This document shows, in pieces, positions 1-10,461 of a stretch of DNA of 64,000 nucleotides. Origin of the DNA: an uncultured Arenicella sp. (lineage in GTDB: Bacteria > Pseudomonadota > Gammaproteobacteria > Arenicellales > Arenicellaceae); the NCBI GenBank assembly GCA_938048185.1, contig CALIVT010000004.1:1-64000 (forward strand). Reading direction: 5' to 3'. Under the pieces are notes generated by a model, which saw only the letters and a list, made by a program, of their open reading frames with translations, searched no databases and was not told where the DNA came from. Position 1 is the stretch's first letter. Every line of letters starts with the position of its first letter. The translations under genes and the position numbers were made by a program.

Positions 1-180
1 GCATCCTGCGCCCGCTGCTTTAGTGCATCCATGCACGTCAGCTCGGTAATTCCGTGTGATAAATCCGCATGGAGCGGATTTAAACGGCCAAAGGCCGCCC
101 CGTAGGGGTGAGTCGCAGGGATGCGACGAATAAAGTAGGACCCCGATGCCCCACTGAATTATTAAGAACGATACTGGCTT
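1..180. repeat. Degenerate intergenic repeat, copy A
   Basis: This block opens with a GCATCCTG box, a GTGCATCCATG(C/T)ACGTCAGC box near 24-41, and closes with a CCCCACTGAATTATTAAGAAC box at about 150-170. The same boxes recur in the same order from 225 to 460. The middle carries short complementary stretches (for example CGGCCAAAGGCCG) that can fold. No reading frame looks like a protein. I infer a repeat family present elsewhere in the genome; the copy may begin outside the window. Confidence 0.6.
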
Positions 181-224
181 TTTATACATTTGAATATTGC
201 GGGGTCTTATTCGATAGCGCTTAG

Positions 225-470
225 GCATCCTGCTCTCGCTGCATTAGTGCATCCATGTACGTCAGCGGGGCAACCGTGTGTACCCCAAGGGTATCTAAAC
301 AAAGACCCCAGGAGCATCTTTCGATCCTTCGGTCTGTAAACGGCACATCCATGTACCACTCCTGGACGGCCAACGGCGGGTCGCGTAGCGATAAACCATA
401 GGAATGTAGTTTACAATGCAGGACTCTAATACCCCACAGAACTATTAAGAACCTTGCTAGCCTTCGCTAA
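225..470. repeat. Degenerate intergenic repeat, copy B
   Basis: Second copy of the repeat at 1-180. It shares the GCATCCTG start, the GTGCATCCATGTACGTCAGC box, and the CCCCACAGAACTATTAAGAAC box near 434-455. The middle is longer by about 65 bases and contains another CATCCATGTACCA motif near 346-358. The two copies are diverged, so this is an old duplication or two members of a dispersed family. No transposase or clear terminal inverted repeats are visible. Confidence 0.6.
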
Positions 471-947
471 TAGCATAATAAGGCTAAATTTGTCCAAGGG
501 TGGTCTCTTGGTAAGAAATCACTAAATTGAAATCACAAGCCTTCAGTGCGGCACACCGAGAGTCTTTTGTTTTAAAACGTTGATGTTTCTTATTTGTAAA
601 CACTCAGGCGGCCATCACGCAGGCTAAACTAGTACCTCTTTCGGTTCGCAAAATTCAGCTTGCAGCTTGATGCTCTAGGGTTTGACGCATCCATATACCA
701 CACCTTAGAGGTCTTGTTTCGCGGATTCGAGTAAGCAACAGTTAACGTCAAGGCGAGAACCCGGGAGCTCTTCTCGGGCAATTCTAAGATTTGAGCACTG
801 CTGTGAACGCGTGCGCCCAACCAGCTTTGTAAAATATGTAATAAATCTTTGGCAGTAATGATTTATATGCTTAAGCGTTCTTATATAATCTGTGCACTGA
901 TAAACGGCCGAGTTCGGCTCATCTGGCTATAGCCGCTGCCATTGTAA
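471..947. other. Gene-poor stretch with a further repeat fragment
   Basis: I see no credible gene here. A fragment GCATCCATATACCACACC at 687-704 resembles the CATCCATGTACCAC box of the repeats at 1-470, so the repeat-derived area probably extends to about 710. The last 100 bases should hold the promoter of the exported protein gene starting at 948. I could not pick out a convincing -35/-10 pair. Confidence 0.4.
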
Positions 948-1724
948 ATGACATCATTAACTGCAAAGCTGACACTTTTTATCTTCCTCTTCTGTCTGTC
1001 GCCTGCTGTGTTCGCCGCGCTCGCGGAGTCGACTTGGATAGAATCGTTTGAAGGCGAGAAAAGTATTAGATTTGCCCGATATGACGGCGAAACTTGGACC
1101 GTCGATGACGAGGCGATATATCGCAGTGATAACCCTTTAACCTCGCTTGCATTGGGCACCGATTTGAGTGGTGTCAAGACCCTCATTTGGACAGAGCAAA
1201 TCCGCAGCAAAATGGTTTTGATGCAGATGCGGGCCATTCTGAATGCAGATGGTCTTCTTTCTTGGTCGCCAGCTGGTCTCTTTAGCGATTTTGGTCGAGA
1301 AAATTTTTCCGCTTCAATTGTTTACGATCTTGGCGGGCAAGGTTGGGTTTTCTGGTCGGCCAGCACTCATTCTTATAGTGACGTTGTCGTGAGCCGTAAT
1401 ATTGGCGGTACCTGGAGTGAACCGGAGCTCGTCCACGAGCCAAACGAAACGCCAGACAGCTTGCCTGTTTCGTCGATGAGCGAGACTGGCGACGTAATTG
1501 TGGAGTGGCAGGCGTTCGATCAAAGTTCAAATAGCTATCACACTAAGATTAAAAAATTCTCTATCAATGCTGATTTAGAGCTACGCCAGCAATCTGAGTT
1601 GGTTGACTCACTCGGTCTAAATGATGTTTCTTTACCGAGTGATGCGTCGACTGAAATCCAAGCTGTGTTGCACTTCCCAAAGAATCAAATGCTTCAATCG
1701 GTCGTGATTCGCGACAATTATTAG
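948..1724 (+). CDS. Exported protein of unknown function, propeller-like
   Basis: A 258-residue protein with a clear signal peptide (hydrophobic segment at about residues 8-22, cleavage near AVFA-ALA). The mature part is rich in short strands ending in aromatic motifs (WTVDD, IWTEQ, GWVFWSAS, GGTWSEPE), a pattern seen in sialidase/BNR-type beta-propeller proteins, though no exact Asp-box is present. It resembles the exported protein at 7924-8691: both share W-x-AS, D(V/I)x(V/L)SR, TW, PDxLP and WxAFD in the same order. The SGNH esterase gene follows after 27 bases, suggesting co-transcription. Function is unknown; a carbohydrate- or surface-related role is only a guess. Confidence 0.75.
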   Translation: MTSLTAKLTLFIFLFCLSPAVFAALAESTWIESFEGEKSIRFARYDGETWTVDDEAIYRSDNPLTSLALGTDLSGVKTLIWTEQIRSKMVLMQMRAILNADGLLSWSPAGLFSDFGRENFSASIVYDLGGQGWVFWSASTHSYSDVVVSRNIGGTWSEPELVHEPNETPDSLPVSSMSETGDVIVEWQAFDQSSNSYHTKIKKFSINADLELRQQSELVDSLGLNDVSLPSDASTEIQAVLHFPKNQMLQSVVIRDNY

Positions 1725-1751
1725 AGCTCTGAGAGCAACTGAAATTTATCA

Positions 1752-2555
1752 ATGTTTAACGTATTTAAAATTACTGTATCGCTGGTTTCCCTATTTGTTG
1801 GACTCATGGTCGATCAAGCTGCGCTCGCTCGCGAGGTTAACCTTATCGCTTTATTTGGTGACAGTATCACTATCGGCGAGAACTCCTCGTTTCCACTGGC
1901 TTTAAGGCCTGGACGTGGTTCTGGCAGGTTGGGGAATGACGGCGAATTTCCAGCTTTACCTGCGAGTGATAAGTTAGATAGCTTAATGAGACAGGAGCGT
2001 CGGAACTCTATTGTCTCGAATTGGGGCCGCGGAGGTTCAAATACTGGCAATCGTCCCGGAAATGGGGCCGAGCGAATTTTTCGTGAGTTACAGATTACTC
2101 TTAATACTCACCCTGCCGATAACTATTACGTACTGATTATGTACGGAACCAATGATTTTGGTTCTGGCTTGTCACCATCCGATACCGAGTTCAACACAAA
2201 ACTGATGATTGACCGAGCCCGTTCAGCTGGGTTTGTTCCTGTCATTGGAACAATAACACCGCGCATAGACCGTAATGTCACTCCATACAATAGCCGAATC
2301 GTTGCGGCGGCCCAATCGAGACAAGCTCCGATAGTCGATCATTATGCTCGCTTTGTTCAAGACGGGAACGGTGGCTTGAGCTTACTTGATGTAGAGGTAT
2401 TTAACGGGCGGACGCTGCGTTTACATCCTACGTCTGAAGGGTATGACGTTATTGCTAGAACGTGGTTCGATCAATTTTTGAAAGATGCAATTGAACCAGA
2501 ACGTTCGGGGGCGTCGTCTCTCGTTCCCGTGATAACACTTTTGCTAGATGAGTGA
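1752..2555 (+). CDS. Exported SGNH/GDSL-type hydrolase
   Basis: A 267-residue protein with an N-terminal signal peptide (about residues 1-26, ending AALA). SGNH family blocks are visible: GDSITIG with nucleophile Ser38, the block II glycine in NWGRGGSN (about Gly93), block III GTND with Asn134, and block V LHPTSEGY with His225. These are the residues of a secreted lipase/esterase or carbohydrate deacetylase. The Asp normally three residues before the catalytic His is a Leu here (Leu222), so the triad may use another acidic residue such as Asp213. It probably shares a transcript with the upstream exported protein. The substrate cannot be told from sequence. Confidence 0.85.
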   Translation: MFNVFKITVSLVSLFVGLMVDQAALAREVNLIALFGDSITIGENSSFPLALRPGRGSGRLGNDGEFPALPASDKLDSLMRQERRNSIVSNWGRGGSNTGNRPGNGAERIFRELQITLNTHPADNYYVLIMYGTNDFGSGLSPSDTEFNTKLMIDRARSAGFVPVIGTITPRIDRNVTPYNSRIVAAAQSRQAPIVDHYARFVQDGNGGLSLLDVEVFNGRTLRLHPTSEGYDVIARTWFDQFLKDAIEPERSGASSLVPVITLLLDE

Positions 2556-2624
2556 ACATCGCCAGTCCTTGAATCGATGTGCGCAATCAATAAAGAGTGA
2601 TGGTAAATTGACTCTATTCTGTTC

Positions 2625-3116
2625 TTAACAGGTAATTTCGACTTTTTCCGTCACTAGCTTTTTGTTGTTAACTCTGATTTCAACTTGCCAGGGGCCAATG
2701 AACTCTTCCAAACCCGCCGCTGGGTTTATCCACTGAATCATACCTGCTCCTCTTGCTCGCGAGAGACTTAGCCAACTCCACAACTTGGTCGTACTCTCAG
2801 TCACTGTGAAGGGGTACTCAGTCCTCTCTCGCTCTTCACCGTTAGGATCGACCCACGTAAATGACACCGTGTATCTTTTTTTCTCGAAGTTGGCGAGACT
2901 TAGCGCGGCGTAGATTTTGTCGGTGCAATTAAAATTAGTTTTACGATCGGCGCTCGGAAACCCGTGTTTATCGCCAAGCGCGAAATACAAATCGATTGCT
3001 TGTTTGCCTGTTTCTTCTGTGGAAGGCTCGGCAGATAGTTGCCCGTTGAAAAAAAACAAAAAGGCCATCGTTTTAATGATGGCCTTTTCTAATTTTAATG
3101 TACTACTTTTCAACAT
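2625..3116 (-). CDS. Exported hypothetical protein
   Basis: A 163-residue protein that I do not recognise. The N-terminus reads as a long basic region followed by a short hydrophobic stretch (AFLFFF, about residues 18-23) and a cleavage-like NGQLSA, so it is probably secreted. The mature part has two cysteines (in FNCTD and at the C-terminal EITC) and strand-rich segments such as GPWQVEIRVNNKKL that suggest a beta-sandwich. It lies 33 bases downstream of the lipoprotein gene on the same strand. A strong intrinsic terminator lies over its first 25 codons (3049-3088), which makes the start and the mode of expression uncertain. Met17 (3068) is an alternative start. Confidence 0.6.
   Translation of the reverse strand: MLKSSTLKLEKAIIKTMAFLFFFNGQLSAEPSTEETGKQAIDLYFALGDKHGFPSADRKTNFNCTDKIYAALSLANFEKKRYTVSFTWVDPNGEERERTEYPFTVTESTTKLWSWLSLSRARGAGMIQWINPAAGLEEFIGPWQVEIRVNNKKLVTEKVEITC
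3049..3088 (-). terminator. Intrinsic terminator overlapping a signal-peptide coding region
   Basis: Read on the minus strand, an 11-bp perfect stem (3088-3078 pairing with 3069-3059; arm AAAAGGCCATC) with an 8-base loop is followed by TG and eight T residues. This is a textbook Rho-independent terminator. It lies about 60 bases downstream of the stop of the lipoprotein gene (3150) but inside the 5' end of the next gene on the same strand. Confidence 0.85.
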
Positions 3117-3149
3117 GTTGCCTTAGCACACGCTCTTACCGTATTAGGT

Positions 3150-3746
3150 TTACGAGCGATTCAGCGTTGCTTCACCCGTGCCAGTGCTGTTACTGCAAAG
3201 GTCGTCGCTGGTGGTATAAGTTCCGGATAAAGTATTGCCATTATTACTAATCGCAAATTGAAAGTTAATCGTGCCCGTCACGTCTTCTTCTGCGACGGTG
3301 ACGTCAGTAGAGTTACCACGACCATCGCTGCTGCTGCTGGGAGATACTCTCGTATCCGAAAATCTGACACTTTCAGATGTCGCTGTGATTGGATTGCCCA
3401 TATCATCCATGCCAGTAACGCGTGTGCGTGTAGTAGTCACCACAAAGCGCCGTCGGGCCTGCTCTGACATCAAATTTAGGTTGAAGCCGTTGTTGACTCC
3501 GGTAACCGTTCCGTTCGCAATGCAGCGACCAAATCCAGTACTCTCGATTATTACGTTGCCAGTCACTGCACCAGCGTCCGTTTCAGCGATATCTAACCGT
3601 ATTGTGCCTGCTTGGCTATTATTCTGATTTACGAATGAGCCGGTAAATTGGCTGTTAACTGTAGAAGGTAGCGGTGCTACCGTTGACCCACTGCTACACG
3701 CAGCCAGCAAAACAGTCATTGCTAAAGAAATGGCTATATTTTTCAT
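3150..3746 (-). CDS. Putative lipoprotein
   Basis: A 198-residue protein with a bacterial lipoprotein signal: basic start, hydrophobic core and lipobox LAAC at about residues 14-17, then a Ser/Gly-rich linker. The mature part is strand-rich and Thr/Ser/Asn-rich (for example SGTYTTSDDLCSNSTGTGEA) with a second Cys pair, which suggests a small outer-membrane-anchored beta-barrel-like or sandwich domain. I do not recognise a family. Its transcript should end at the terminator at 3049-3088. Confidence 0.75.
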   Translation of the reverse strand: MKNIAISLAMTVLLAACSSGSTVAPLPSTVNSQFTGSFVNQNNSQAGTIRLDIAETDAGAVTGNVIIESTGFGRCIANGTVTGVNNGFNLNLMSEQARRRFVVTTTRTRVTGMDDMGNPITATSESVRFSDTRVSPSSSSDGRGNSTDVTVAEEDVTGTINFQFAISNNGNTLSGTYTTSDDLCSNSTGTGEATLNRS

Positions 3747-3893
3747 AAGATGGATTCAGTATCGTTTATATGTATTTGTTATTTCTACAAATATATCTTA
3801 ACAGGATGGGGCTGGGCAAGCACCAAATGCGTATTTCACTCGTTTTGTGATTATTCTTGATTCTTGCCGTCTTGTCTATCGTGATGACAGACT

Positions 3894-5150
3894 TTAGACG
3901 TTAAGCTTCTTTAATCGTGCAACGTGCACCGATGTGTCACGAGTTTGTACAATTTCTACGGTGTAATCGTCTACCTTAAAACAGGTTGCCGCTTCCGGGA
4001 TATCTTCTAACTGGTTAATTATTAAACCATTCACTGTTTTTGCGTTTTCGGTCGGCAGGTCCCATTGTAGTTGACGATTTATATCTCTGAGGTAGGCATT
4101 ACCGCGTACTAGATAGGACCCATCTTCTTCTTTTGTGATTTCATCATCCATCCCAGGCACTATCGTTGTAAAATCGCCGACTACCTCCTCAAGAATCAGC
4201 TCGAGCGTAACAAGGCCTTTGATGTCACCATACTCATCAACCACGATGCCAAAGCGGCGGCGCTGTTCTTGAAGGTTTGTTAGCGCATGAGTAACCGATG
4301 TGTTTTCCGGAATGAAATACGGTTCGCGAATCATGGTGATCATAGTTTCTTTATTAAAGTCGGCGAGTTGCGAGAGGTAAAACATTTTGCGGATATGCGC
4401 TATGCCGACAAAATTATCCATGCTGCCCTTGAAAACGGGTACGCGCGTATGGTGAGAGGTGGCGAGTTGTTCGACAATTTCGTCCCATTCATCATCTAAA
4501 TCAATGGCTTGCATGTCTGCACGTGGCACCATTACGTCTTCAACCGTGACTTTTTCCATCTCTAGTACACGCAACAACATGTTTTGATGAGAGTTGTTGA
4601 GTAACGCACTGGATTCGTTCACGGCCGCCCGCAATTCTTCATTGCTAAGCGCGTCGGTTTGCACTTCTACAGTCACGCCAAGCAGGCGTAGTAAGCCGTT
4701 CGAGAAAATTTTGACCAACCAAACAAAGGGCGTGAGTACTACCTGTAAGAAAGCGAGGACCCAGGCAGCGGGGAAGGCGATACGCTCGGGATTGACCGCG
4801 GCTAGAGTCTTGGGTGCGACCTCAGCGAAGATCAGTACTAGAAATACTAATAACATCGGTGCATACGCTAAGCCAACGTCACCAAACATTCGTAAACCAA
4901 TCACGGTTGCGAGGGTCGACGCAGCGATATTGGCAACATTATTGCCGAATAGAATAGTCCCCAGCAACTTGTCTGGGGTCGCTAGCAAGCTTAATACCAA
5001 GCGCGCACTGCGATTGCCTGATTCTGCTTGAGTTCTGATACGGTATCTATTGACCGCCATCATCGCGGTTTCCGACGATGAGAAAAATGCCGACAGCATA
5101 ATCAATAGGAATAATGCGAGAGATAAGACTCCCAGGGGAACTTCGTTCAA
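3894..5150 (-). CDS. corB: CorB/YfjD-type CNNM membrane protein (CBS domains)
   Basis: A 418-residue inner-membrane protein of the CNNM/CorB (HlyC/CorC) family, linked to magnesium transport or homeostasis. An N-terminal DUF21 region (about residues 1-180) has four membrane segments, begins with the typical small-residue SSSETAMMAVNRYRIR motif and includes the conserved FAEVAPKT. A CBS pair follows (about 190-320, from DVMVPRADM to VVDEYGDIKGLVTLEDI-like LELILEEVVGD), then a C-terminal CorC/HlyC domain (about 335-418). Length matches E. coli YfjD (about 428). It is transcribed away from acnB; the two share the 5151-5324 promoter region. Confidence 0.9.
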   Translation of the reverse strand: MNEVPLGVLSLALFLLIMLSAFFSSSETAMMAVNRYRIRTQAESGNRSARLVLSLLATPDKLLGTILFGNNVANIAASTLATVIGLRMFGDVGLAYAPMLLVFLVLIFAEVAPKTLAAVNPERIAFPAAWVLAFLQVVLTPFVWLVKIFSNGLLRLLGVTVEVQTDALSNEELRAAVNESSALLNNSHQNMLLRVLEMEKVTVEDVMVPRADMQAIDLDDEWDEIVEQLATSHHTRVPVFKGSMDNFVGIAHIRKMFYLSQLADFNKETMITMIREPYFIPENTSVTHALTNLQEQRRRFGIVVDEYGDIKGLVTLELILEEVVGDFTTIVPGMDDEITKEEDGSYLVRGNAYLRDINRQLQWDLPTENAKTVNGLIINQLEDIPEAATCFKVDDYTVEIVQTRDTSVHVARLKKLNV

Positions 5151-5324
5151 TGTGTATTCACACTCATGATAGTCAAAATACGCCGAATCTTGTCGGCTAA
5201 GCTAATAGTATCACTTCAAACTTGGGTGCGTGTATAGTAAAATTTGCGCCCTAAATCGGGAGGCTCTGGTTTCTTCGAATCCACGAATTCACCCCTTCAT
5301 TCGCTAAATAGCCGAGGAATTATT

Positions 5325-7913
5325 GTGTTAGAAGCATATCGCGCGCACGTCGCTGAACGAGCTGAAATGGGCATTGTGCCTGAGCCTCTAAATGCCAACC
5401 AGGTTGCTGACCTAGTTGAATTGTTAAAAAGTCCTCCCGCAGGTGAAGAAGATTTTTTGATGGATTTATTCACCAACCGCGTCCCGGCTGGCGTAGACCA
5501 AGCCGCTTACGTCAAGGCTAGTTTCCTCGCCGCAGTAGCTAATGGCGAAGCCAGCTCGCCACTAATTAGTGATGAACGAGCCACTGAAATATTAGGCACA
5601 ATGCTAGGTGGTTATAATATTGAACCGCTGATCAAAGCATTAGATAACCCCAAGTTGGCTGATGAAGCTGCAGGGTCGTTGTCACACACCTTATTAATGT
5701 TTGATGCCTTTTACGATGTCAAAGAGAAGGCTGATGCCGGCAACGAACATGCCAAGCGCGTGATTCAATCATGGGCGGATGCCGAATGGTTTACCTCAAA
5801 GGAGCCTGTTGCTGAAAAAATAACTGTTACGGTCTACATGGTGCCTGGCGAAACGAATACCGATGACTTGTCGCCCGCGCCAGACGCATGGTCGCGCCCT
5901 GACATCCCCCTGCACGCGTTGGCTATGTTGAAAATGCCTCGCGATGGTTTTGATGTTAACGGTGACCCGCTTGGCAAAATTGAAGAACTTAAAGAGAAGG
6001 GTTTTCCAGTCGCGTATGTTGGTGACGTAGTCGGTACTGGCTCGTCACGTAAGTCAGCAACTAATTCGGTGTTGTGGACGATGGGCGACGACATTCCACA
6101 CATTCCCAATAAGCGCGATGGCGGCTATTGCTTTGGCAACAAGATTGCGCCCATTTTTTACAACACCATGGAAGACTCTGGCGCACTACCAATCGAAATG
6201 GATGTGTCCAAAATGGAGATGGGCGATGTGATCGAAGTCTACCCGTATGAGGGTGTCGTCAAACGCCATGGCACTGATGAAGTGATTTCTGAATTCGAGC
6301 TGAAGACCCAAGTGTTATTAGACGAAGTTAGAGCGGGTGGTCGTATCCCGTTGATTATCGGCCGAGGTTTAACCGCGCGCGCTCGTGAATCACTAGGCCT
6401 TGAAGCGTCAGACTTGTTCCGTCAGCCAGAACCTGTCAGTCAAAGCGACAAAGGCTATACCCTTGCTCAAAAAATGGTTGGTAAAGCCTGCGGTTTAGAC
6501 GGTGTACGCCCAGGGCAATACTGCGAGCCAAAAATGACCACGGTAGGCTCTCAAGATACCACGGGCCCGATGACTCGAGATGAGCTTAAAGACTTAGCAT
6601 GCCTTGGATTCTCTGCAGATTTGGTTATGCAATCGTTTTGTCATACTGCGGCGTATCCAAAGCCAGTTGACGTGCAAACACACGCTAATTTACCGGACTT
6701 TATTCGCAACCGTGGTGGCGTTTCTTTAAAGCCGGCTGATGGCATCATCCACTCTTGGCTAAACCGCATGCTAATGCCCGATACAGTTGGCACTGGCGGT
6801 GACTCACATACACGTTTTCCAATTGGCATTTCGTTTCCTGCCGGGTCTGGCTTGGTGGCGTTTGCCGCAGCAACGGGCGTGATGCCTTTGGATATGCCTG
6901 AGTCGGTATTAGTGCGCTTTAAAGGAGATATGCAACCTGGCATTACCTTACGTGATTTAGTGCACGCAATTCCGTACTACGCTATTCAGAAGGGTTTACT
7001 GACGGTTGAGAAAGAAGGCAAGAAAAATATTTTCTCTGGTCGTATCTTAGAGATTGAAGGCTTGCCGGACTTGAAAGTAGAGCAAGCGTTCGAGCTCGCG
7101 GATGCGTCAGCTGAGCGCTCAGCAGGTGGTTGTACCATCAAGCTAAATAAAGAGCCAATAATCGAATATATTACATCGAATATCACCATGTTGAAATGGA
7201 TGATCTCCGAAGGTTATGGGGACGTGCGCACGATTTCGCGCCGAATTATGGAAATGGAAAAATGGCTGGCAACGCCCGATCTATTAGAAGCCGACGCTGA
7301 CGCTGAATACACTGAAGTTATTGAAATTGATTTGAATGAGATTAAAGAGCCAATCCTGTGTTGTCCTAATGACCCCGATGATGCGAAGACGTTATCTGAG
7401 GTTTTAGGCAGTGGTGAGGTGAAAATCGACGAAGTTTTTATCGGCTCATGCATGACAAATATCGGTCATTTTCGCGCAGCCGCTAAATTATTCGATGAAA
7501 TGGGCACGCTAGTCCCGACTCGAACCTGGATAGTGCCGCCGACTAAAATGGACGAGGCACAGCTAACGGCTGAAGGTCACTATGCAACATTTGCTAAAGC
7601 AGGTGCGCGTACCGAAATGCCAGGTTGTTCGCTCTGCATGGGCAACCAAGCGCGTGTAGCTCCGGGTTGTACGGTGGTTTCGACGTCGACGCGTAATTTT
7701 CCAAACCGTTTAGGCGATGGCGCGAATGTTTACCTCGCGTCGGCTGAGCTGGCCGCAGTTGCTGCAGTCAAAGGTCATTTGCCCAGCGTTAAAGAGTATT
7801 TAAAAATCGCCGAAAACCTAGATATGGTTGCAGGTGATATCTATAAATATTTGAACTTTAATGAGTTGCCGAGTTATCAAAAAGCGGCCGATGAAGTTCA
7901 GTTAAGTACGTAG
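5325..7913 (+). CDS. acnB: Aconitate hydratase B
   Basis: Bifunctional aconitase and 2-methylisocitrate dehydratase of the TCA cycle (citrate to isocitrate via cis-aconitate), cytoplasmic, with a 4Fe-4S cluster. The GTG start at 5325 is chosen because the protein then begins [17 protein letters not shown], matching the N-terminus of known AcnB, and a GAGGA ribosome-binding site lies at 5314-5318. An in-frame ATG at 5244 would add 27 unrelated residues. The product is 862 residues (E. coli 865). The swivel domain comes early ([12 protein letters not shown]) and the cluster cysteines late (IGSCMTN and [10 protein letters not shown]), the order diagnostic of the B type. Confidence 0.97.
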
Positions 7914-7923
7914 CTGAGTTTTT

Positions 7924-8691
7924 ATGAATGGTGCGAACAGAAATAATTTTGCTGGCTTACTTGTCGCAATTATTCTGTTCGTAAATCCTGTGCTTGCTCA
8001 AAATGATTGTAGCGCGGTCATTGTTTCCTCTACCTACCAACCAGAGTCGAGTAAGGTCGAGCTATGGGATTATACGGCGGGCCGATTAGGGTTAGCACAA
8101 CTTGTATACCAGAGTAGCAATGAAAACTCGGGTGCGGTTGCTGCGCAGCGTGAGGAAGGTAAAGTCGTAGTAGCATGGATTGAAAACAGTAATTCCAGCA
8201 GTAGTTTGAATTTGCGAATACGTGATAAGTTTGGTGAGTGGGGTGACGTTGTGTCTCTGGTTGAGACAAGCAGTGAAATATCTTCTCTAACCGCTCTATA
8301 TGATGGATCGGAAACAGTGTATCTAGCCTGGGCTTCTGCTCAAGATGGCGATGATGATATATATCTATCGCGGCTAACGTCTAACACGTGGACTTCTTCA
8401 GAATCGATTAATAATTCTAATGCTGTGCCTGATATTTTACCGCGTTTACGATTCCAACATGACGGTCGCCCAGTGATGACTTGGAGAGCTTTTGATATGG
8501 GCTCTTTACGGTATCAATTGATGCAGAAAATAGTAGGTGAGGCGCTTGATCGGGATACTTTGAGTGCAGCTCGAGAAAATAATTGCAAGGAGAAGCTATC
8601 GGGCATGACATTGCCCAACACAGTTAGCCCTTTTTTTATAAACTATCCACAAGACATCTTAAATAGCTATCAAACGCCACTTGATCAATAA
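7924..8691 (+). CDS. Exported protein of unknown function, propeller-like paralogue
   Basis: A 255-residue protein with a signal peptide (hydrophobic residues 10-24, cleavage near VLAQ). The body repeats short strand motifs (VVVAWIENS, VYLAWASAQ, SNTWTSSE, VMTWRAFD) like those of the protein at 948-1724, over an alignable stretch of about 85 residues. The two look like distant paralogues. It begins 10 bases after acnB on the same strand, so it may be read from the acnB transcript, but a link to the TCA cycle is unlikely. Function unknown. Confidence 0.75.
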   Translation: MNGANRNNFAGLLVAIILFVNPVLAQNDCSAVIVSSTYQPESSKVELWDYTAGRLGLAQLVYQSSNENSGAVAAQREEGKVVVAWIENSNSSSSLNLRIRDKFGEWGDVVSLVETSSEISSLTALYDGSETVYLAWASAQDGDDDIYLSRLTSNTWTSSESINNSNAVPDILPRLRFQHDGRPVMTWRAFDMGSLRYQLMQKIVGEALDRDTLSAARENNCKEKLSGMTLPNTVSPFFINYPQDILNSYQTPLDQ

Positions 8692-8700
8692 ATAGTTGTT

Positions 8701-10461
8701 TTATCTACTTTCACCGCTTCGTTCTGCGCGGTAACCGAAGAACGGTCGCTCTATAAGGCTGTAACTCAATATAGCCATGCAGTAAGTAATTGAAAATGAG
8801 CCGATTACGAATACCCAGCTGCGTTCAGCACCGCTGGACACTCCAAAGTATTGAATCTGTATTTGCTCAAATAGCTGCATCCCCAGTCCGTGAAGAATGT
8901 AGAAGCTAAACCCGATAACGCCCACCGATCTAAATAGCCAATTGCTAACAATTTTACGGTAAAACGAATTGGGCGTATTCAACGCCATAAGGATAATTAA
9001 ACCGCATGAGAGACATTTTACCCAGAACTGGCTTAGCCAGTTAAATATGGCTGTCGGTGCGACCAAGGGGGCTGACCAAGCTATTGCAAAAAAGGTAAAT
9101 AGTAAGGCTACTAAGCCAAATGTTTCTTGTCGCCAGCGAGCGCCAGTATTAACAATATTTGGCTTAGTCAAAAGATCGTATTGCAGGTAGGAAGCAAGCA
9201 CACCGATCAGAAATGAGAACAGGAAAAACTGTTGATATCCGCTGCCATTATAATACGGGGTCCAACCACGCATTGATGTAAACGCAAAATATATTGCTGT
9301 AACTAGCACGGTTATTGGTAAAAAACGATGTAAGCGGTGACACAATGATGTCGCTAATAGCACTAGCGGCAGTAGCATGTAGAAAGTAAAGATTTGTGGC
9401 ATAGGCCACAAATGGCCTTCGCCTTGCACGAAAAAGAAGTGTCGCAGAGCTGTATCAAACTTGAGTGCAACCACGTAAATCAGAAAGACGTAGAAATAGT
9501 ACATGGGTAAAATGCGTTTTAGTCTTTTCGTCAAATAGTGTTCAATATTTGCCCAGCTAAAAATTTTCGTATTGTCGAGAACGAAGGGCTTAGAAAGCAA
9601 AAAACCACTGATTACGAAGAGCAGGGCAAGCCCCATTTGTAATGCCTCAAACCCTGGCGCTGTATGACTTAAGAGAACCAATAGCGCAGCCATGCCTCTT
9701 AAGCCGTTGATAGTATCGAACTCTCGGCTAGTGGAGATTTTATTGCCCAGCGCTATATCGCTAAAAGCGGGTAATGAAAGAAGCCTTGAGCTACGGGCAA
9801 GCAACAATACGCCAAAGAAAAACAGTAATGGAATCCCTGCGACTACCTGCCAGCCAGTTCTGCCTATTTCGGAGATCGAATTTACTGTGACGCTTTTCCC
9901 TTGTGATTCGAATATCAGTTCTCCGTTATTTCGTAATTCGCCTTCATTTGCAACAAAAAATTTGGCTACGTTTTCGCCGTTAAAAAAGAAGTGGGTCTGA
10001 AACGGTTTGATTAGTTGTATTGATGTGAGTACGGAGTTCAACTTCTGATCAGCAATGGTGCGCGGACCCGTCTTCGTGAACCTGATTTCGAGTTCTCGTA
10101 GTGGCATATTTATATTGTCGCTACCTTGTCTCTGCTCGTAACGTCTATTCTGACCAGGGATTGTGAAACTGTCGAATAATTGGCGTTTTTCACTCTCTGA
10201 GACACGATAAATTTCTACCAAGGTGTCCTGATAAAAGTAGCCTTTTATAATTACTCGAGCGGTAGTCTCCTGAACATTAAACGAGACCAGTAGCCATGTA
10301 AGCAGGCTGACCACAATGGCAATTGCTAGAGAAGGATATCGTTTTTGTATGCTCACTGACTTCAGTCTTGGATTTTTTAATAGCTGGCGCGAGTATACTG
10401 GATTGTTAGTATCGGTTATAGGTGAGTTGGCAAAGCAGCATGCCGTGTGTATATTGCGCAC
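8701..10461 (-). CDS. Membrane acyltransferase (acyltransferase-3 family)
   Basis: A 586-residue integral membrane protein. The C-terminal two thirds (about residues 245-580) form an acyltransferase-3/OafA-type domain: it opens with INGLRGMAALLVLLSHTAPG, including the conserved Arg and His, continues through about ten membrane segments and ends LIERPFFGYR. Such enzymes O-acylate surface or periplasmic sugars. Unusually, a membrane anchor (about 45-62) and a soluble, strand-rich region of about 150 residues come before it, bounded by another membrane segment (about 205-222). The first 34 residues look atypical; a GTG at 10356 (residue 36) is an alternative start. The target sugar is unknown. 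Confidence 0.85.
   Translation of the reverse strand: MRNIHTACCFANSPITDTNNPVYSRQLLKNPRLKSVSIQKRYPSLAIAIVVSLLTWLLVSFNVQETTARVIIKGYFYQDTLVEIYRVSESEKRQLFDSFTIPGQNRRYEQRQGSDNINMPLRELEIRFTKTGPRTIADQKLNSVLTSIQLIKPFQTHFFFNGENVAKFFVANEGELRNNGELIFESQGKSVTVNSISEIGRTGWQVVAGIPLLFFFGVLLLARSSRLLSLPAFSDIALGNKISTSREFDTINGLRGMAALLVLLSHTAPGFEALQMGLALLFVISGFLLSKPFVLDNTKIFSWANIEHYLTKRLKRILPMYYFYVFLIYVVALKFDTALRHFFFVQGEGHLWPMPQIFTFYMLLPLVLLATSLCHRLHRFLPITVLVTAIYFAFTSMRGWTPYYNGSGYQQFFLFSFLIGVLASYLQYDLLTKPNIVNTGARWRQETFGLVALLFTFFAIAWSAPLVAPTAIFNWLSQFWVKCLSCGLIILMALNTPNSFYRKIVSNWLFRSVGVIGFSFYILHGLGMQLFEQIQIQYFGVSSGAERSWVFVIGSFSITYCMAILSYSLIERPFFGYRAERSGESR

Follow-up and report, generated by a model that had tools for sequence, protein, structure and literature searches.

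Intrinsic terminators that lie inside translated sequence, or that set expression ratios within operons, are known from several organisms. In Bacillus subtilis an intrinsic terminator within the translated bmrB leader open reading frame sets the expression of the sequence that follows (PMC4191407). The Arenicella locus described here is alike in this respect. However bmrB has a separate leader open reading frame, an antiterminator and a response to antibiotic, whereas in Arenicella the open reading frame is that of a structural gene and there is no consistent antiterminator. A geometry nearly the same as that of the Arenicella locus is found in the tR2 construct of E. coli, which is engineered, whereas the present arrangement is natural and occurs across a genus. 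Translation is reported to have cost the tR2 terminator, placed 30 bp after the AUG, only about 10% of its efficiency, and a terminator more than 27 nt from a stop codon was not repressed by the ribosome (PMC4824070). In ABC-importer operons of cellulolytic Clostridia a stem-loop terminator just behind the exported binding-protein gene reduces expression of the downstream gene (PMC9045158). The Arenicella hairpin would act in a similar way. These internal terminators are described as intergenic and of lower U content, and thus differ from the Arenicella hairpin, which is in the codons of the next gene with both pairing and reading frame kept. Internal operon terminators of Methanococcus maripaludis similarly set ratios within operons, but they are archaeal and intergenic and their dependence on aCPSF1 was measured (PMC10450193). 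A literature search, which does not prove absence from print, found no report of a terminator that overlaps the codons of a signal peptide; nor is such an overlap shown in the consulted portions of PMC7566282, PMC10319736 and PMC12218461.

The window analyzed is a 64,000 nt stretch of DNA from an uncultured Arenicella sp. The genes of concern are on the minus strand. A CNNM/CorC-type gene with CBS domains (positions 3894–5150) is followed by a lipoprotein gene (positions 3150–3746), which begins MKNIAISLAMTVLLAAC and has what we take to be a lipobox; it is the presumed owner of the terminator. A spacer of 33 nt (positions 3117–3149) separates its stop codon from the start of a gene for an exported protein of 163 amino acids, which consists of a signal peptide and a predicted Ig-like beta-sandwich (positions 2625–3116). 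The convergent neighbours further downstream (positions 948–2555, plus strand) encode a 258 aa protein and a GDSL hydrolase, and in 13 of the 15 complete genus loci another conserved gene family occupies their place. The exported proteins encoded at positions 948–1724 and 7924–8691 of the plus strand look by eye like distant paralogs, with W-QAFD and W-RAFD stretches.

The exported protein shows no Pfam or NCBIfam family above the cut-off. Its AlphaFold2 model has a mean pLDDT of 84.5 and displays an N-terminal helix and then beta strands. Matches of the model to solved structures are weak, with TM-scores of 0.57 or less among the 50 matches listed, and include carbohydrate-binding domains of Wzt O-antigen transporters and the Ig-like Pseudomonas protein 3n6y. 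An alignment of 24 sequences shows two invariant cysteines. Relatives of the protein are present in 41 of the 61 genomes searched, its own genome included; within the genus they are found in 16 of 18 genomes, one of them as a 52-residue fragment.

A terminator-like hairpin is found within the signal-peptide codons of the exported-protein gene (positions 3058–3089, minus strand). The stem is 12 bp, with 11 Watson-Crick pairs and one G-U pair, the loop is 8 nt, and the hairpin spans codons 10–20, which read E-K-A-I-I-K-T-M-A-F-L. On the minus strand the order is GAAAAGGCCATC-(8 nt)-GATGGCCTTTTT (positions 3089–3058), followed by G and then T8 (positions 3056–3049). The outer 3′ arm of the stem itself contains T5 ahead of the G and T8. 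The tail of G, T8 and C-A-A (positions 3046–3057) completes Leu20 and encodes Phe21–23, i.e. the hydrophobic core. Counted from the ATG at position 3116, hairpin and T-tract together are codons 10–23 of the 163 aa open reading frame. The first-pass annotation had placed a hairpin with T8 at these codons on the gene strand, and this is confirmed. The hairpin starts 60 nt past the lipoprotein stop codon, where the annotation gave 62 bases. Its statement that downstream expression needs passage through the hairpin is borne out, as any transcript with the annotated start must cross it.

A G+C-containing stem thus directly precedes a U-tract on the sense strand. A 55 nt piece with the hairpin folds at −18.6 kcal/mol (z −5.2) and none of 200 shuffles is equally good. 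In a loose terminator scan of window positions 1–9000 the hairpin is at the top of the list for both strands, although this class of site, with 11 found and 9.3 expected, is no rarer than chance. A stricter score picks out 34 hairpins on the two strands of 464 kb from the same genome, the target among them. The target alone lies clearly within 5′ coding sequence; this is a rough figure, as the crude gene caller kept 312 genes, missed both the exported-protein and lipoprotein genes and filed the hairpin as intergenic. A candidate for a second overlap elsewhere in this genome (G000 C18:41765) was rejected, because the hairpin fits a short spacer and the more likely start follows it. At L087 1765–1782, plus strand, a terminator-like hairpin occupies a short spacer that separates two co-directional genes; it is near the next start but probably does not reach into the coding sequence. 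When the first 45 codons of the window gene are recoded with synonyms, 20 of 1000 draws have a score as high as that of the real hairpin. The window sequence alone is therefore moderately unusual, and the case rests on conservation in the genus. Rfam 15 shows nothing at gathering score in positions 2500–3900, where two sub-threshold matches have 23.4 and 22.9 bits versus the 55 and 49 needed, and a promoter scan of positions 1–9000 gives 13 sites with 13.5 expected and is thus uninformative.

The lipoprotein gene is followed by the exported-protein gene on the same strand in all 15 complete genus loci, so that the site lies between co-directional neighbours that are kept together. In 12 of these 15 orthologs a hairpin and T-tract are found in the same signal-peptide codons, and the other 11 hairpin-bearing proteins are only 42%–54% identical to that of the window. 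The reading of the hairpin as a dual-coded element in the first-pass annotation is thereby extended to the genus, and the outcome that would have spoken against it, absence of a hairpin from orthologous loci, is not what 12 of the 15 show. These are not 12 independent cases, since close pairs are among them (G015 with G006 and G010 with G007). In the 12 loci the spacer between the two genes is 7–86 nt, and the hairpin starts 33–108 nt past the lipoprotein stop and 20–53 nt into the longest open reading frame. Thus in all 12 the upstream stop codon is more than 27 nt away, and the hairpin falls in roughly the first 100 nt of the open reading frame. The peptide over the hairpin in these 12 is roughly Lys-Ala-Ile/Thr-x-x-x-Met/Val/Leu-Ala-Phe-Leu.

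The exceptions are three. In G002 (L043) the hairpin has a weak T-tail and is found in the 84 nt spacer outside the gene, as though a terminator were free to lie before or after the start. In G004 the hairpin is farther in, at +107, and outside the signal peptide. G012 has a weak hairpin, which 79 of 1000 recodings equal.

Beyond the genus 25 genomes have a match to the exported protein; 15 loci, from 15 of these genomes, were analyzed, and 13 of them have no qualifying hairpin. One of the remaining two, in G026, is a G+C-rich hairpin followed by 5 T in 8 bases. The other is in G018, of another genus in the same family, where the exported-protein gene again carries a terminator-like hairpin over its signal-peptide codons (L046 4899–4922, plus strand), one that is equalled by none of 1000 recodings. 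Its stem sequence is unrelated and the lipoprotein upstream is from a different sequence family, and the G018 hairpin is perhaps of independent origin. A tree of the exported protein with 23 rows, built to date gain and loss, has a long G018 branch, five label changes and good support at 4 of 20 inner branches. A search of genome contigs gave one locus, apparently on the same 4808 bp contig as that of G006.

Eleven of the hairpins align without gaps, with identical arm-to-arm core length; that of G005 has a core 3 nt (one codon) longer and was left out. A change in core length by a whole codon only is expected if the whole hairpin is translated. In the 11 aligned hairpins 94.4% of paired cells are complementary, versus 85.2 ± 1.6 in shuffles, and 6 of the 13 stem pairs show changes on both sides. 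Covariation is 0.422 versus 0.222 ± 0.030 and is reached by none of 500 shuffles; as the shuffles ignore relatedness this count is not a probability. When the pairing partner is shifted by 1–3 columns, pairing falls to 28%–65% and covariation to 0.06–0.21. The stem core is conserved as GGC/GCC. At one stem pair 3 of the 11 rows differ from the others by a G-C to A-U exchange, and both changes are synonymous (AAG/AAA for Lys and GCC/GCT for Ala). Another links Ile, Thr, Ser or Gly codons to Met, Val or Leu codons as U-A, C-G and G-C. The amino acids encoded by the two arms of the stem seem to covary, since their codons have to pair.

The synonymous recoding of 45 codons described above, applied to each of the 12 orthologs, yields the observed score or better in 1 to 58 of 1000 draws, and each single-ortholog test is thus modest. 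Some qualifying hairpin is present in 66–483 of 1000 recodings, i.e. the amino acids themselves favour a hairpin. The score used for recoding, for the non-genus loci and for the control starts admits pairing that runs through the T-tract, which concerns three hairpins. None of 73 control starts from six neighbouring gene families, 14 lipoprotein signal peptides included, reaches the threshold reached by 12 of the 15 target starts. The CorC starts show weaker qualifying hairpins in 9 of 12 (score 14–18).

The T-tract is likewise conserved: of the 8 bases that follow the core (alignment columns 31–38), 6–7 are T in all 11 aligned orthologs. The three codons after the stem carry 78 T in these 11 orthologs versus a synonymous null of 66.7 ± 2.7, and one of 5000 draws is as high; the A content of the two codons before the stem, 43 versus 44.0 expected, is not raised (the codon tables were of 407 to 12,804 codons per genome). 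Selection thus points to the sense strand. A bidirectional terminator is disfavoured, because the A-tract codons are not enriched in A. A repeat or mobile element is also disfavoured: the sequence AAAGGCC...GGCCTTTT is found at nine places in the genome (16 matches, both strands), and the stems differ.

A covariance model built from the 11 hairpins recovers the left-out G005 hairpin at 33.7 bits. However an unrelated palindrome in L046 has 30.3 bits and other G000 sites have up to 30.0, so that the model lacks specificity and is of little weight as evidence. Its match within the signal-peptide codons of the lipoprotein itself (positions 3705–3743, minus strand) has 19.1 bits (E-value = 0.22), which is at chance level. 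Taken across the genus, a conserved element dual-coded in signal-peptide codons is well supported. Evolution seems to have kept both of its readings, as an export signal and as a transcription stop.

What this element would do in the cell is approached here from sequence. We consider it probable, though well short of certain, that the hairpin is the intrinsic terminator of the lipoprotein mRNA, written into the signal peptide of the next gene, and that read-through sets a fixed, lower expression of the downstream gene. The sense-strand terminator would end most transcripts that begin at or upstream of the lipoprotein gene, and a minority would read through to give the exported-protein mRNA. 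The terminator would in this way fix the ratio of the two products, with the lipoprotein high and the exported protein low. In the right frame the same sequence would serve as a signal peptide, in which Lys precedes the stem, the stem encodes Ala and small or hydrophobic residues, and the U-tract encodes Phe and Leu. A short spacer is the likely reason for the location, since a terminator far enough behind the stop codon then falls into the next gene. G008 fits this lack of room less well, as it has an 86 nt spacer and the hairpin is still in the gene. Termination, the share of read-through, co-transcription and a translation start upstream of the hairpin are the parts of this model that we infer. 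One point against a fixed terminator is that termination inside an open reading frame would leave non-stop mRNAs, which is a cost.

The first-pass annotation had suggested an attenuation switch instead, in which ribosome occupancy of the hairpin couples translation to transcription. In such a switch a ribosome rapidly loaded on the exported-protein open reading frame would cover the hairpin and let the polymerase pass, while slow initiation would lead to termination; the gene would then monitor how it is itself translated, or else coupling that comes from the stop codon of the lipoprotein gene. We regard such a switch as possible but unlikely. The hairpins, at the distances given above from the first start codon and the upstream stop, would in all 12 loci be near enough for a fast re-initiating ribosome, and ribosome-controlled terminators within coding sequence do exist for leader peptides, as in bmrB (PMC4191407). 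Start codon, spacer length and start-to-hairpin distance nevertheless all vary among loci, and the hairpin has a mean pair probability in context of 0.84–1.00 in all 12. A mutually exclusive upstream antiterminator, as in trp- and bmrB-type systems, is not consistently present: complementarity to the 5′ arm is better than in shuffles in G011 (9/200), G013 (2/200) and G014 (11/200), and in none of the other nine. A separate translated leader, the other trait of such systems, is not found either, as all 12 loci have the hairpin in the open reading frame of the structural gene itself. By these two features the element is not a trp- or bmrB-type attenuator. The behaviour measured in E. coli, where translation at a comparable position relieved termination by only about 10% (PMC4824070), fits a fixed terminator and also argues against a strong ribosome-occupancy switch, though another organism may differ. 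The switch as first proposed is therefore not upheld, and a fixed partial terminator requires fewer assumptions. Shine-Dalgarno strength was discarded as evidence for weak or coupled initiation, since lipoprotein genes in the genus are practically without any such sequence as well.

A plainer arrangement would follow if the true start is an ATG or GTG in the 3′ arm or beyond it, the hairpin being an ordinary spacer terminator of which only the 3′ arm and T-tract touch the first codons. An in-frame ATG or GTG does occur within the hairpin region in 11 of the 12 loci (G011 is the exception), Shine-Dalgarno strength gives no clear preference for the upstream start, and the only upstream start is TTG in G014 and GTG in G007. 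The peptides that would result are less convincing, as none of the 12 has Lys or Arg in its first five residues and in some loci only 12 residues precede the first charge, which is short for a signal peptide. (The motif search placed the internal start of G010 and G007 four residues early, but there is no Lys or Arg either way.) Peptides from the upstream start have an n-region net charge of 0 to +4 and an uncharged run of 14–24 residues; all 12 frames continue without a stop across the 5′ arm up to an ATG, GTG or TTG, and core length differs by one whole codon only. These features favour the predicted upstream start without proving it, and a separate start after the hairpin, while available in most loci, is improbable. 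Still less likely, in our estimation, is a post-transcriptional role in which termination is unimportant and the hairpin shields the lipoprotein mRNA at its 3′ end or gives rise to a small RNA. Hairpins at the 3′ ends of mRNAs can stabilize RNA. Stabilization alone, however, needs no excess of T such as that found in the T-tract codons beyond synonymous expectation, and the hairpin region shows no Rfam family at cut-off. RNAs from premature ends are described as regulators in E. coli (PMC7815308). That the hairpin is a protein-binding palindrome at the DNA level, or a chance by-product of signal-peptide sequence, we hold to be very improbable indeed. The core is palindromic and the amino acids do favour a hairpin, but both arms change with pairing kept and none of the neighbouring starts, lipoprotein signal peptides among them, reaches the score.

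A fixed partial terminator, if true, would make this locus an example of natural, conserved DNA under two constraints: its RNA must keep a paired stem with a U-tract, and it must still encode a signal peptide that works. A broader and quite speculative idea, which we think unlikely to hold, is that terminators and signal peptides share a grammar in which A-tract, stem and U-tract correspond to Lys, Ala and Phe-Leu and so to n-region and hydrophobic core, and that evolution made use of it to build into the gene an obligatory terminator that measures early translation and holds the ratio of exported protein to lipoprotein. On this idea a dual code of this kind could also be present in other lineages. 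If such overlaps are common, annotation of terminators and of start codons would both miss them. For the exported-protein gene of Arenicella, a full-length product would be made only by passing a terminator in the gene's own first codons, and the locus would provide a simple natural test of how early ribosomes can shield RNA polymerase from termination.
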